Made by a program: the position numbers and the translations under genes
Shown: piece after piece, positions 19,570 through 27,536 of the stretch
Position numbering within the stretch: position 1 is the stretch's first letter
How the letters are laid out: each line of letters opens with the position of its first letter
Assembly: GCA_016235345.1 (NCBI GenBank)
Contig: JACRLG010000007.1
Location: 124,001 to 188,000, forward strand
Direction: 5' to 3'
Origin: Deltaproteobacteria bacterium
GTDB taxonomy: Bacteria; Desulfobacterota; Desulfobacteria; Desulfobacterales; Desulfatibacillaceae
DNA: 64,000 nucleotides
Notes under the pieces: model-generated
What the model saw: the letters and a program-made list of their open reading frames with translations, nothing else
The model's database searches: none
What the model was told of the DNA's origin: nothing

Positions 19570-19923
19570 ATGAAAAAAACCTACGATATCCTGCGCGTGG
19601 TTCTGCCCATCCTGGCCATTATTCTGGGCGGCATAAAGCTGGCGGGAATTCCCATAGAACAGGACACCTTTCTGACCATAGGCGCTCCGCTATGGGCCAT
19701 GAGGGTTTTCGGGCTGGTCCAGGCCGCGTGCGGGGTGGCCATATTTTTTCCGGCCATCCAGGCTGCGGGCCTCTGGAGTTCCACTGCCCTTCTGGCTCTG
19801 GCGGCTATTTTAATGGCCGCAAACGGCATGCCCCGCGCCGCCGTCCCCCTGGCCGGAATCGCCACGCTTCTGGTTTTCGCCCGCGCACGCATGGCTGTCA
19901 TTCGTAAGGACAAGGCCCCGTAA
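19570..19923 (+). CDS. Small four-helix membrane protein coupled to oleA-like gene
   Basis: A 117-residue hydrophobic protein with about four membrane helices, DoxX-like in length and spacing. The stop TAA overlaps the start of the next gene as TAATG, so translation is coupled and the product should be needed with the OleA-like thiolase. I do not recognise a named family. A role as a membrane tether or accessory for hydrocarbon or lipid product handling is only inferred from the coupling. Confidence 0.72.
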   Translation: MKKTYDILRVVLPILAIILGGIKLAGIPIEQDTFLTIGAPLWAMRVFGLVQAACGVAIFFPAIQAAGLWSSTALLALAAILMAANGMPRAAVPLAGIATLLVFARARMAVIRKDKAP

Positions 19924-20948
19924 TGCCCTTTCGCACCGCAATTCTCTCCGTCGCCGCAGTGCTTCCCGAAAACGTGGTTGAAAGCGCCGCCATAGAAGAA
20001 CTGCTCTCGCCCGTCCTGGCCCGTCTCACCTACCCTAAGGGGATCATGGTGGGCCTTACCGGCATAAGGGAGAGGCGACTCTGGGACCCCGGCGTGACGC
20101 CCTCCGCAGCCGCCATCCTGGCTGGCCGGAAGGCGCTGGAAAAAAGCGGCCTTTCGCCGGACCGCCTGGGCTGCCTCGTCAGCACCTCGGTTTCCAAGGA
20201 CTATCTGGAGCCTTCGGTGGCGAGCCTGGTCCACCACGGTCTTGGGCTTTCGCCCCATTGCGTCAATTTCGACGTTGGAAACGCATGCCTGGGTTTTCTG
20301 GACGGCATCAACACGGTATCCATGATGATAGAGACCGGGCGCATAAGAAGCGGCATGGTGGTGGCTGGGGAAAGCTCCCGCGAGCCCCTGGAGAACACCG
20401 TGAGGATGCTTCTTGAACCAGGAGTCACGGCCCAGGTCTTTCAGGACAATTTCGCCACCCTCACCCTGGGTTCCGGGGCTGCGGCCATGATTCTCACCAG
20501 GGAGGACCTGGCTTTTGGGCGGCCCGTGATAGAAGGATCGGTGAGCCTTGCGGCCACCGAGCACTGCCGCCTGTGCCTGGGGCACCGCGACCGCATGACC
20601 GCCGACGCGCCGATGGTGATGAAGCACGGGGTGAAGCTCGCCCACGACACCTGGAAAAAGGCCGAAAGCGCCATCGACGGGTGGGGTGACGGGAGCATCG
20701 ACCTCTACGTGCCCCACCAGGTGAGCGCCAGAAACATGCTGGTCTTAACCCGCACCCTTGGGCTTACGGCGGACAAGGCGGCGCTCAATTTTCAGTATCT
20801 CGGAAACATCGGCCCGGCGGCCATACCCATAACCCTGGCCCTGTCCGAAGACGACGGACGATTTGCCCCCGGAATGAGGGCGGCGCTTCTGGGAATAGGC
20901 TCCGGCCTCAACTGCTCCATGATGAGCCTCTACTGGCCGGTGTCATGA
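19923..20948 (+). CDS. oleA: OleA-like thiolase-superfamily condensing enzyme
   Basis: A 341-residue thiolase-fold protein. It matches OleA (head-to-head condensation of two fatty acyl-CoAs to a beta-keto acid) better than FabH. Shared features include RRLWD near residue 57, STSVSKDYLEPSVASLV, FDVGNACLGF with the nucleophile cysteine, and the closing GIGSGLNCSM. The His (VPHQVSARN) and Asn (YLGNIGPAAIP) of the triad are present. In the canonical pathway OleB, OleC and OleD convert the beta-keto acid to a long-chain olefin; none is adjacent here. The downstream gene is convergent. The assignment to the OleA branch comes from memory of the family motifs and should be confirmed by phylogeny. Confidence 0.85.
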   Translation: MPFRTAILSVAAVLPENVVESAAIEELLSPVLARLTYPKGIMVGLTGIRERRLWDPGVTPSAAAILAGRKALEKSGLSPDRLGCLVSTSVSKDYLEPSVASLVHHGLGLSPHCVNFDVGNACLGFLDGINTVSMMIETGRIRSGMVVAGESSREPLENTVRMLLEPGVTAQVFQDNFATLTLGSGAAAMILTREDLAFGRPVIEGSVSLAATEHCRLCLGHRDRMTADAPMVMKHGVKLAHDTWKKAESAIDGWGDGSIDLYVPHQVSARNMLVLTRTLGLTADKAALNFQYLGNIGPAAIPITLALSEDDGRFAPGMRAALLGIGSGLNCSMMSLYWPVS

Positions 20949-23040: not shown

Positions 23041-23069
23041 TTGACAAGCGGAAAAGACGTAATTATATA
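23041..23069 (+). promoter_or_regulatory. Strong sigma70-like promoter of the microprotein array
   Basis: TTGACA at 23041-23046, a 17-base spacer and TATATA at 23064-23069, preceded by a long A/T-rich run. It is one of the best promoter matches in the window and faces the three tandem small genes. Confidence 0.75.
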
Positions 23070-23073
23070 TGTT

Positions 23074-23110
23074 CGTACAACTGTACGCGCAATTGTAAAA
23101 ACGAATTGCG
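23074..23110 (+). promoter_or_regulatory. FabR-like operator and adjacent inverted repeat
   Basis: CGTACA-AC-TGTACG at 23074-23087 is a perfect 6-bp inverted repeat with a 2-base centre, lying at the expected transcription start. It closely resembles the GTACA/TGTAC palindrome bound by FabR (YijC) in enterobacteria, recalled from the literature. A second inverted repeat, CGCAATT (23088-23094) / AATTGCG (23104-23110), is immediately adjacent. A FabR-like regulator is encoded 0.9 kb downstream. Confidence 0.6.
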
Positions 23111-23180
23111 GTACAAACATAAAAACTGATGCGCAAAAGAGTGTCCCGGAACCTGACGAAAACCGACAAAGGAGGAAGCC

Positions 23181-23324
23181 ATGAAAAGAACGAGCCAGAA
23201 AATAGGAATGGACAAGGTCGCCGGTCTGGACGTCATCACCCCGGATTTCCCCCTGTACGCCCTGGCCTACAGCCGCTTCGGCATGGCCCGGTTTTCCGGA
23301 AAAAAGAGCGGGGAAAAGAAGTAG
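23181..23324 (+). CDS. Tandem microprotein 1 (47 residues)
   Basis: The ATG at 23181 follows a near-perfect AAAGGAGG. The 47-residue product has a basic N-terminus (MKRTSQKIGM), a conserved core DVITPDFPLYALAYSRFG and a strongly basic tail (KKSGEKK). No signal peptide or full membrane helix is present; the core could form a short amphipathic or membrane-surface helix. About nine bases in 144 differ from copy 2, and the ribosome site is identical, so the two are a recent tandem duplication. The promoter upstream carries a FabR-like operator. Function unknown; no named family recognised. Confidence 0.8.
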   Translation: MKRTSQKIGMDKVAGLDVITPDFPLYALAYSRFGMARFSGKKSGEKK

Positions 23325-23405
23325 GGTCATCCGTTCGGGTTTTTTGGCCTGTCGGCCACAAGCGTCAATAATCGGCAAAAGCCGCATTTCTTAAAGGAGG
23401 AAGCC

Positions 23406-23549
23406 ATGAAAAGAACGAGCCAGAAGTTGGGAATGGAAAAGGTCGCCGGTCTGGATGTCATCACCCCGGATTTCCCCCTGTACGCCCTGGCCTACAGCCG
23501 CTTCGGCATGGCCCGGTTTTCCGCCAGAAAGAGCGGGGAAAAGAAGTAA
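23406..23549 (+). CDS. Tandem microprotein 2 (47 residues)
   Basis: Paralogue of the first microprotein with the same AAAGGAGGAAGCC leader, the same length and the same core DVITPDFPLYALAYSRFG. Amino-acid changes are confined to residues 8-11 and 41-42; other base changes are silent, which argues for selection on the protein. It lies 81 bases after copy 1 with no promoter of its own visible. Confidence 0.8.
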   Translation: MKRTSQKLGMEKVAGLDVITPDFPLYALAYSRFGMARFSARKSGEKK

Positions 23550-23627
23550 CGGCAAGCTGCCCGATTTTCGGGAATTTGCCTGATGAGCCTTTTGAACGGA
23601 AAAGCGCTCGATGTGAAGGAGGAAGCC

Positions 23628-23798
23628 ATGAACATAACCGGACTTCGCACCATAACTGGAAAGTCGACGGGGCAGGACGTGATAACGCCCGGTTTTCCCC
23701 TTTACGCCCTGGCTTACAGCCGCTTCGGATACGCCCTGCTTTTGCTTGGCAGGCCAATCAGGCGGCAGTGCACGGAAAATCTTGTGAAAGCTCCTTGA
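23628..23798 (+). CDS. Tandem microprotein 3 (56 residues), diverged
   Basis: Third copy. The AAGGAGGAAGCC site fixes the ATG at 23628 (an earlier in-frame start at 23583 lacks one). The product shares QDVITPGFPLYALAYSRFGYA with copies 1 and 2, but its N-terminus is different (MNITGLRTITGKS) and it has a hydrophobic LLLLG followed by a basic, cysteine-containing tail. The conserved block over different flanks shows which part is functional. Downstream at 23828-23852 is a hairpin (AAGG..CAAAAA/TTTTTG..CCTT). Confidence 0.75.
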   Translation: MNITGLRTITGKSTGQDVITPGFPLYALAYSRFGYALLLLGRPIRRQCTENLVKAP

Positions 23799-24652: not shown

Positions 24653-25726
24653 GTGGCTTCCAAGAAAACAAAGACCGAAAAGGCCGTGGCTGAGGTTAAA
24701 AAAGTCCCGGATCTGCTGGAAGCCCTTCTTGAGGAGGAAATTAAATACTTCCTGAAACTCGTTAAGGGGCCGGGTTTCAAAAAACTGGTAAAGGGCGAGG
24801 TTTACTCCATCTTTGAGGCCATGAGCAAGGTGACCCTTTCGGACGTGCTTTCGGCGGACCAGATCATGGGGATAATCCGCCGCATCGTCATCGGCTTCAC
24901 CCCGGCGGGCGGTGTGCCCGAAATAGCGGGCGAAATGGCCCGCAAGGTTATTTCGTCCGAAATCAACGAATCCACCACCCTGGACGACATCTTCCCCCAG
25001 GCCATCTATGACCAGTTCGCCGAAAAGGCGGCCACCATGGACAACGTGCGCCGAAGGGTCATTCACAGGGCGGTTCACAACACCGCCTATTCCCGCATGG
25101 TCTGCGACGCCATCATCACGGTGGTCCAGGAATACGCCGTTTCGGACATCCCCATCGCAAGGAAGATTCCGGGTTTCAACCTGCTCATGGGCATAGGCAG
25201 GGGAACGGCCAAAATGGCTCTTCCGGGCCTTTGGAGCGCAATCGAGGACACCTTCCGCGATTTCATCGAAAAGCGCGTCGATTTCATTCTGGCCAGGAGC
25301 GAGAGTTTCCTCCTGAACTTCCTCAGCGAAGAGCGCATGATGGAGATTTCCGACGAGGCGTGGAGGGAAGCCTGCGGAAAGACCCTGGCCGAGCATTTCA
25401 GCGCCCTGTACCCGGCTGACCTGGACGAGCTCATTGTTGTGGGTTACGAGTTCTGGCTCAATTTCCGGGAAACCCCGTATTTCGAGACCCTTGTGGATGA
25501 GCTGGTGGCTTATTTCTTCGAAAAATACGGCGACCGGGAGGTTGACCTCCTGGTGGAGGACATAGGGGTCACCCGCGAGATGGTGGTTCAGGAAGTGGTG
25601 GAATTTGCCGCCCTCATCGTGAAAAAGGTGGTTTCCACCGGCCTTCTGGAAGAGCGCCTTCGCTTCCACCTCACGCCCTTCTTCCACGGCGAAAGGGCCG
25701 CGAAGGTATTGGCGGATCACAAATAG
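24653..25726 (+). CDS. Conserved-looking 357-residue protein coupled to the FabR-like regulator
   Basis: Starts with GTG 3 bases after the regulator stop, so it is in the same transcript. It is a largely helical protein with a lysine-rich N-terminus, several amphipathic segments that could lie on a membrane (IIRRIVIGFTPAGGVPEIAG; IPGFNLLMGIGRGTAKMA) and an acidic C-terminal half. No catalytic motif or clear transmembrane helix is evident. It is not a family I recognise. Its place behind a fatty-acid-type regulator suggests membrane-lipid homeostasis, which is inference only. Confidence 0.8.
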   Translation: MASKKTKTEKAVAEVKKVPDLLEALLEEEIKYFLKLVKGPGFKKLVKGEVYSIFEAMSKVTLSDVLSADQIMGIIRRIVIGFTPAGGVPEIAGEMARKVISSEINESTTLDDIFPQAIYDQFAEKAATMDNVRRRVIHRAVHNTAYSRMVCDAIITVVQEYAVSDIPIARKIPGFNLLMGIGRGTAKMALPGLWSAIEDTFRDFIEKRVDFILARSESFLLNFLSEERMMEISDEAWREACGKTLAEHFSALYPADLDELIVVGYEFWLNFRETPYFETLVDELVAYFFEKYGDREVDLLVEDIGVTREMVVQEVVEFAALIVKKVVSTGLLEERLRFHLTPFFHGERAAKVLADHK

Positions 25727-26916: not shown

Positions 26917-27180
26917 TTATTCGTAGTGGGTCCACATCCTTAGCACCTTGACGGTCTTTTCATCGGCAATCACTTGATAAACCAGTCGATGCTGCAGGTT
27001 TATCCTCCGGGAAAAAGCTCCGGCCAGGTCTCCCGACAGCTTTTCAAAGGGGGGCGGGTTCTGAAAGGGGTTTTCGGCGAGAATTTCCAAGAGCCTTTCG
27101 GCGTTTGGCTTAAGCCCGGCAGCCGACAGGTTTTTCGCGTCCTTTTGGGCCTGCCTGGTGAAAACGACTCGCCATTTCAC
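26917..27180 (-). CDS. YoeB/Txe-family mRNA interferase toxin
   Basis: An 87-residue protein starting at the GTG at 27180, which overlaps the antitoxin stop as GTGA. It shows the RelE-fold pattern of YoeB: KWRVVFTRQAQKDAKNL at the start, NPPPFEKLSGDLAGAFSRRIN with the RNA-contacting basic residues, HRLVYQV and a C-terminal VLRMWTHYE. Such toxins cleave mRNA at the ribosome and are neutralised by the YefM-type partner encoded just upstream. Confidence 0.9.
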   Translation of the reverse strand: MKWRVVFTRQAQKDAKNLSAAGLKPNAERLLEILAENPFQNPPPFEKLSGDLAGAFSRRINLQHRLVYQVIADEKTVKVLRMWTHYE

Positions 27181-27419
27181 CAGCCGGGATCCTCTGAGCA
27201 TTCGCCGACGGGGGTGGCCAGGCCTTCCCTGATGGATTCCCTCATGCCGGGAATCGACAACAGATACAGGTTTTCCTGCACGGCCCGCCAGTCCTCTTCG
27301 GAAACCAGCACGGCATTGGCTCTTTTGCCGGTGATCACTATGGGTTCATGGCCCTGGGCGGCCTCGTCCATCAGGCGGTAGAGGTTTGCCCGGGCCTTGC
27401 TGGCCGTAATCGTCTGCAT
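27177..27419 (-). CDS. YefM/Phd-family antitoxin
   Basis: An 80-residue antitoxin from the ATG at 27419 (AAGGAG about 9 bases upstream). MQTITASKARANLYRLMDEA, then GHEPIVITGKRANAVLVSEEDW is the Phd/YefM DNA-binding domain, and the C-terminal 30 residues are the toxin-wrapping tail. It is coupled to the YoeB-like toxin by a 4-base overlap. It should autoregulate the operon with the toxin as co-repressor, as in known YefM/YoeB pairs. Confidence 0.9.
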   Translation of the reverse strand: MQTITASKARANLYRLMDEAAQGHEPIVITGKRANAVLVSEEDWRAVQENLYLLSIPGMRESIREGLATPVGECSEDPGW

Positions 27420-27536
27420 GGACTTTTTCTCCTTTCCCAACGACATCTTCCACAGTACGCGATATCGTACGTTTTGTCAATCCTATGTGCGCATTCCAAC
27501 GGATACCTGGTCAGAAAGCCGACTTTCGGCGTGGCC

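Follow-up and report, generated by a model that had tools for sequence, protein, structure and literature searches.

Tandem microproteins in a FabR/DesT-like operon of Desulfatibacillaceae and their possible partnership with a membrane protein

The FabR and DesT regulons are known for fatty-acid enzymes. Gamma-proteobacterial FabR represses fabA, fabB and yqfA, while DesT of Pseudomonas senses acyl-CoA and represses a desaturase operon. MgtS, AcrZ and KdpF, small regulatory membrane-associated proteins of E. coli, are hydrophobic membrane-spanning peptides. The locus described here, which lies in a 64-kb stretch of DNA (the window, to which the positions in Table 1 refer unless a contig or locus is given), recalls each of these systems in part. 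With FabR it shares a regulator of TetR fold with a near-identical HTH, the operator core, an acyl-lipid context and a coupled gene downstream, which is yijD in E. coli and p357 in the window. It differs in that its targets are microproteins, p357 and the membrane protein mem295, that no exact operator occurs elsewhere in the genome, that the regulator scores below the FabR cutoff, and that p357 is a different kind of protein from YijD, an inner-membrane protein of the DUF1422 type. DesT (PDB 3lsj, 3lsp, 3lsr) is the best solved relative of the regulator, but the window operon has no desaturase and a different gene content. Like MgtS, AcrZ and KdpF, the microproteins are shorter than 60 aa, regulated and genetically linked to an inner-membrane protein, here as predicted from genes; unlike them, they are basic, have no evident membrane helix and show no sequence relation.

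Table 1. Features of the microprotein locus and of related loci.
Feature	Position	Strand	Basis or remark
Promoter	23041..23069	+	TTGACA 23041-23046, 17-nt spacer, TATATA 23064-23069
Predicted FabR-type operator CGTACAACTGTACG	23074..23087	.	over expected start site; CGTACA-AC-TGTACG
Microprotein copy 1, 47 aa	23181-23324	+	RBS 23168-23180; ORF and sequence comparison
Microprotein copy 2, 47 aa	23406-23549	+	RBS 23393-23405; ORF and sequence comparison
Microprotein copy 3, 56 aa	23628-23798	+	RBS 23615-23627; conservation limited to core
FabR/DesT-like TetR-family repressor, 218 aa	23993..24649	+	domain, profile and identity evidence
p357, 357 aa, all-helical in low-confidence model	24653..25726	+	GTG start; coupled to repressor gene
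3-oxoacyl-ACP synthase III	19923-20948	+	NF006720, 405 bits, above cutoff
Two overlapping ORFs, presumably resembling a YoeB/RelE-type toxin and a Phd/YefM-type antitoxin	26917-27446	-	
Pfam-less acyltransferase-like protein	L042:7181-8137; L043:218-1225; L046:7180-8121; L015:8270-9166		
TTGACACNNYGCGTCA promoters at solo genes	L023, L080, L021, L022, L078, L081, L082, L083		

The regulator carries a TetR_N domain (Pfam, E=1.3e-12) and is 36.6% identical to E. coli FabR over 186 aa. Against the NCBIfam FabR equivalog NF008402 it scores 128.2 bits (E=3.3e-37), below the curated cutoff of 151 bits, and among solved structures it finds DesT at a profile E=3.3e-23. By these sequence matches it belongs to the FabR/DesT-type TetR regulators, a broad group; no fabA/fabB-type gene for unsaturated fatty acids, the targets of FabR itself, has an exact site, such sites lying only at the microprotein and mem295 promoters, though degenerate sites may occur. 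The first-pass annotation was right in calling a FabR-like repressor with a coupled gene for a 357-residue protein behind it. p357 has no Pfam family and no PDB sequence match, and Foldseek matches to its low-confidence AlphaFold model are meaningless. A FabR-like gene adjoins p357 in nine related loci; a distant homologue (27% identity) in a Burkholderiales MAG (L048:8206-9588) has no such neighbour. Since no terminator-like site was found on the + strand between the array and the repressor, one transcript is plausible.

The published FabR operator core is ACAnnTGT (PMC4804515). The palindrome over the expected start site, present as the first-pass annotation had it, fits this core and matches that of the E. 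coli fabB site, the fabB promoter carrying GCGTACAAGTGTACGC; related promoters carry GCGTACA(AG/CT)TGTACGC, and the window has CGTACAACTGTACG. It is the sole match in the window even when two mismatches are allowed, a stringency at which 0.5 matches are expected, and a matrix made from operators of related loci, this site included, gives it 22.4, the runner-up in the window reaching 9.3. The -10 hexamer matches at 4/6 positions, on account of which the promoter scanner gave no call; related promoters have TTGACA at a comparable distance from the operator. Across genera the distance between the start of TTGACA and the operator centre is ~28, 38-40 or 50 nt, successive values differing by roughly one helical turn. 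The 4.0 Mb genome holds two exact GTACANNTGTAC sites, at the microprotein and mem295 promoters. About four are expected by chance for this 10-base pattern, so that two represent no enrichment and the evidence lies in their position within these promoters, not in their count; nearly all one-mismatch sites of the genome fall inside open frames. An exact or one-off operator precedes the FabR-like operon in all six family genomes that have a FabR-like gene. Exact palindromes in G002:C113, G003:C190, G005:C25 and G007:C419 were left out of the regulon for want of an adjoining microprotein or mem295 gene.

Each of the three microprotein ORFs has AAGGAGGAAGCC directly 5' of its ATG, within near-identical ribosome sites, and all three encode the core DVITP(D/G)FPLYALAYSRFG; the array of 47, 47 and 56 aa is as first described. 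Copies 1 and 2, which had been said to differ mainly at silent sites, do not: of the six codons that differ, four are replacements and two are silent (omega ~0.35). The accompanying claim of selection on the core was borne out, with 8-9 synonymous changes and one non-synonymous change separating copies 1/2 from copy 3 over its 18 codons (omega ~0.02, purifying). Homologue pairs in related genomes give omega values of 0.06-0.32. We read the low omega of the core and of these pairs as selection on translated proteins, and the ORFs thus appear to encode proteins under purifying selection, strong on the core (copy 3 versus copies 1/2). The window copies are basic, with a pI of about 10. The family, of 46-60 aa, roughly follows the pattern M-x-(K/R)-L-G-I ... 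Y-P-L-L-A-(F/S)-x-Y-(S/Y)-R-(F/S)-G-x-I-R-L-A-G, and in two genomes (G005, G008) the module forms the end of a protein of ~120-130 aa. None of 20 members has a profile match in Pfam, NCBIfam or PHROGs, and no Rfam family is seen close to the array. Both genomes of genus g3 (L038, L017) carry an extra small ORF between the operator and the first copy of the microprotein pair, which starts ATGAAAACAGCAGCC and ATGAAAAAGGCAGCC, respectively, and reads through ...GDLLAYTGNCRSFKYENKLF.

A profile search found microprotein homologues in eight of the nine genomes of Desulfatibacillaceae, the window's own family, which excludes the case, raised in the first-pass annotation, of a core lacking homologues in other genomes. 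The other Desulfobacterales of a 389-genome sample gave noise only, the matches outside the family (E 0.02-0.05) mostly containing stop codons or being short matches in unrelated frames; in a 395-genome sample of the phylum matches were confined to the family. The family is assigned from named relatives, among them Desulfatibacillum alkenivorans DSM 16219, Desulfatibacillum sp. MAG7 and Desulfatibacillaceae Yes70-12. The ninth genome (G004) lacks regulator, p357, mem295, microproteins and operator alike. Neither the microprotein family nor p357, mem295 and their regulon were found in the libraries or the literature searched; literature coverage was limited, and the absence of a paper on these microproteins is no proof. 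The regulator class and operator are already known, and the effector (microprotein) family appears new.

The lipid context comes from neighbours in relatives, the regulator alone pointing to lipids within the window itself. In Desulfatibacillum the operator is followed by a microprotein-containing gene and then by genes for an alpha/beta hydrolase, an acyltransferase-like protein (an identity read from motifs and probable), the FabR-like regulator, p357 and mem295. In G007 the order is operator, microprotein, alpha/beta hydrolase, FabR-like gene and p357, and in Desulfococcaceae-type loci the microprotein's place is occupied by acyltransferase-type genes, one of them a DAGAT (E=2e-14). A Pfam-less conserved protein with acyltransferase-like HG and EG motifs occurs in FabR-like operons (Table 1). 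The 3-oxoacyl-ACP synthase III gene of the window lies ~2 kb upstream of the microprotein promoter and has no operator.

The second gene behind an exact operator in the window's genome encodes mem295, in which a single membrane helix at the N-terminus is combined with ~200 aa of repeated beta strands. It occurs in the same eight of nine family genomes as the microproteins, both being missing in G004. In G003 and G006 a microprotein gene stands directly 5' of mem295, and in G007 the N-terminus of mem295, behind the operator, carries the module (MNRLGLRV...PFAYYRSGLIRLGL) as a fusion, the only one seen. By shared operator, gene pairs and this fusion, the sequences tie the microproteins to mem295, and the arginine-rich N-terminus, under the positive-inside rule, suggests that the module is cytoplasmic. 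Mem295 has no Pfam or PDB sequence match, and its model (pLDDT 57), one helix with long beta strands, gives no meaningful Foldseek match; compared with intermembrane lipid-bridge proteins of the AsmA/TamB kind, it shows neither a sequence match nor, with so weak a model, a meaningful match of fold. In two loci of the window's genus (L024, G000:C5:59174; L115, G001:C63) an ORF of 36-37 aa with a good ribosome site lies between the operator and mem295; it lacks the microprotein core, and its position is kept, its sequence hardly.

A solo paralogue of the microproteins is convergent with HtpX in G000, G001, G003 and G006 and lies beside FeoAB in G005 and G008. In all eight genomes that have one it is preceded by TTGACACNNYGCGTCA, which overlaps the -35 (G000:C16:25737-25752 in the window's own genome). 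Eight of the 11 exact TTGACACNNYGCGTCA sites in nine genomes are solo microprotein promoters, and a reversed control sequence had no exact site in these genomes. The remaining three precede a TetR gene, a gene of the MCRA/oleate-hydratase family (E=9e-137) and an acetyl-CoA hydrolase/transferase gene. For the TetR gene (L158, in G007), whose product is the candidate repressor for TTGACACNNYGCGTCA, the nearest model is the TetR-type FadR (NF053878), at 72.5 of 200 bits far below the cutoff; a candidate close orthologue on the C16 contig of the window's genome was rejected (27.6% identity over 58 aa). Read from the sequences, both microprotein clades appear tied to fatty-acid genes by independent operators.

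Our preferred reading, to which we give an even chance, is that the operon of this locus carries the regulator of a small fatty-acid regulon and that its microproteins are cytoplasmic partners of mem295. The FabR/DesT-type repressor would bind CGTACANNTGTACG-type sites at two promoters, that of its own operon (three microproteins, repressor and p357), probably with autoregulation, and that of the mem295 operon. For its signal we infer an acyl-thioester ligand: a shift in acyl chains would lift repression upon imbalance, several copies of the basic cytoplasmic microprotein would be made, and these would act in trans on the membrane-lipid machinery, most probably by serving mem295 as a cytoplasmic partner that can detach, a partnership suggested by the fusion of the same module to mem295 in one relative. 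As far as genes, operators, conservation, protein-level selection, operon linkage and the fusion can tell, the regulation appears well supported; DNA binding, topology, interaction with mem295 and an effect on lipids are the parts we infer from them, and that mem295 is the right partner has about half the probability on its side. More tentatively, the microproteins may serve a beta-repeat inner-membrane protein, one that moves or senses lipids, as separable subunits on the cytoplasmic side, a new fatty-acid-responsive class that a single bacterial family maintains under two fatty-acid-linked TetR-type circuits and whose tandem amplification provides dosage; this we regard as possible, at clearly less than an even chance. 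Several observations count against the preferred reading. The solo paralogues are near HtpX or FeoAB and not mem295; the mem295 operon of the window's genus no longer has the core microprotein, an unrelated short ORF standing in its stead; mem295 homologues in other families have no microprotein, which is therefore not needed everywhere; the regulator lies below the FabR equivalog cutoff, and for p357 and mem295 no relatives are known and the models are weak. The lipid link proposed in the first-pass annotation is upheld by regulator class, operator, conservation, protein-level selection, lipid operon partners and the second regulon; a stress role, a strong promoter and high expression are candidate features. 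Its picture did not include mem295, the solo copies of the microprotein or the second operator.

The microproteins could instead tune acyl-chain flux through lipid enzymes, be it acyltransferase, hydrolase or acyl carrier protein, or at the membrane surface. The Desulfatibacillum gene directly 5' of hydrolase and acyltransferase-like genes, and the operator that solo copies share with oleate-hydratase-family and CoA-transferase genes, would agree with such a role, yet neither the window operon nor the Yes70-12 microproteins have adjoining lipid enzymes and the sole fusion is to mem295, and we consider it unlikely. Improbable to a further degree is that they tune the circuit itself, acting as anti-repressor or co-repressor by binding either the TetR-family repressor or what it binds as ligand. 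In the FabR operon they are closely linked to a TetR-type regulator, and in G007 a TetR gene shares the second operator, both of which would suit this; but one and the same core persists under two different operators and within a membrane-protein fusion, and FabR-like operons without microproteins exist.

We see an equally slim chance that translation of the small ORFs, as leader or arrest peptides acting in cis, controls downstream genes. They are short and first in their operons, with a conserved C-terminal core and perfect ribosome sites. In the window's genus their place in the mem295 operon is taken by a short, non-conserved ORF, and GxIRLAG at the C-terminus bears a loose resemblance to GIRAGP, the arrest motif of SecM. 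A cis leader peptide is nevertheless disfavoured by the standalone copies and by the fusion, the solo copies convergent with HtpX having no downstream gene on their own strand and one copy being fused in frame to mem295; tandem copies and selection over much of the protein likewise disagree with it, and cis action on a co-transcribed downstream gene is not indicated, as judged by gene order only. That short, basic proteins in tandem copies form a precursor cluster for a bacteriocin or modified peptide is very improbable, for the neighbourhood has no maturation or export genes, the proteins have no leader peptide, and the core is kept across genera, in nearly every genome of the family.

A repressor of the FabR/DesT kind thus appears to control microproteins absent from the searched libraries, together with p357 and mem295. 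Operator, ligand class and candidate partner offer entry points, and a named isolate, Desulfatibacillum alkenivorans DSM 16219, has the system. These findings suggest that control of membrane lipids in anaerobic sulfate reducers may include a new layer of small proteins.
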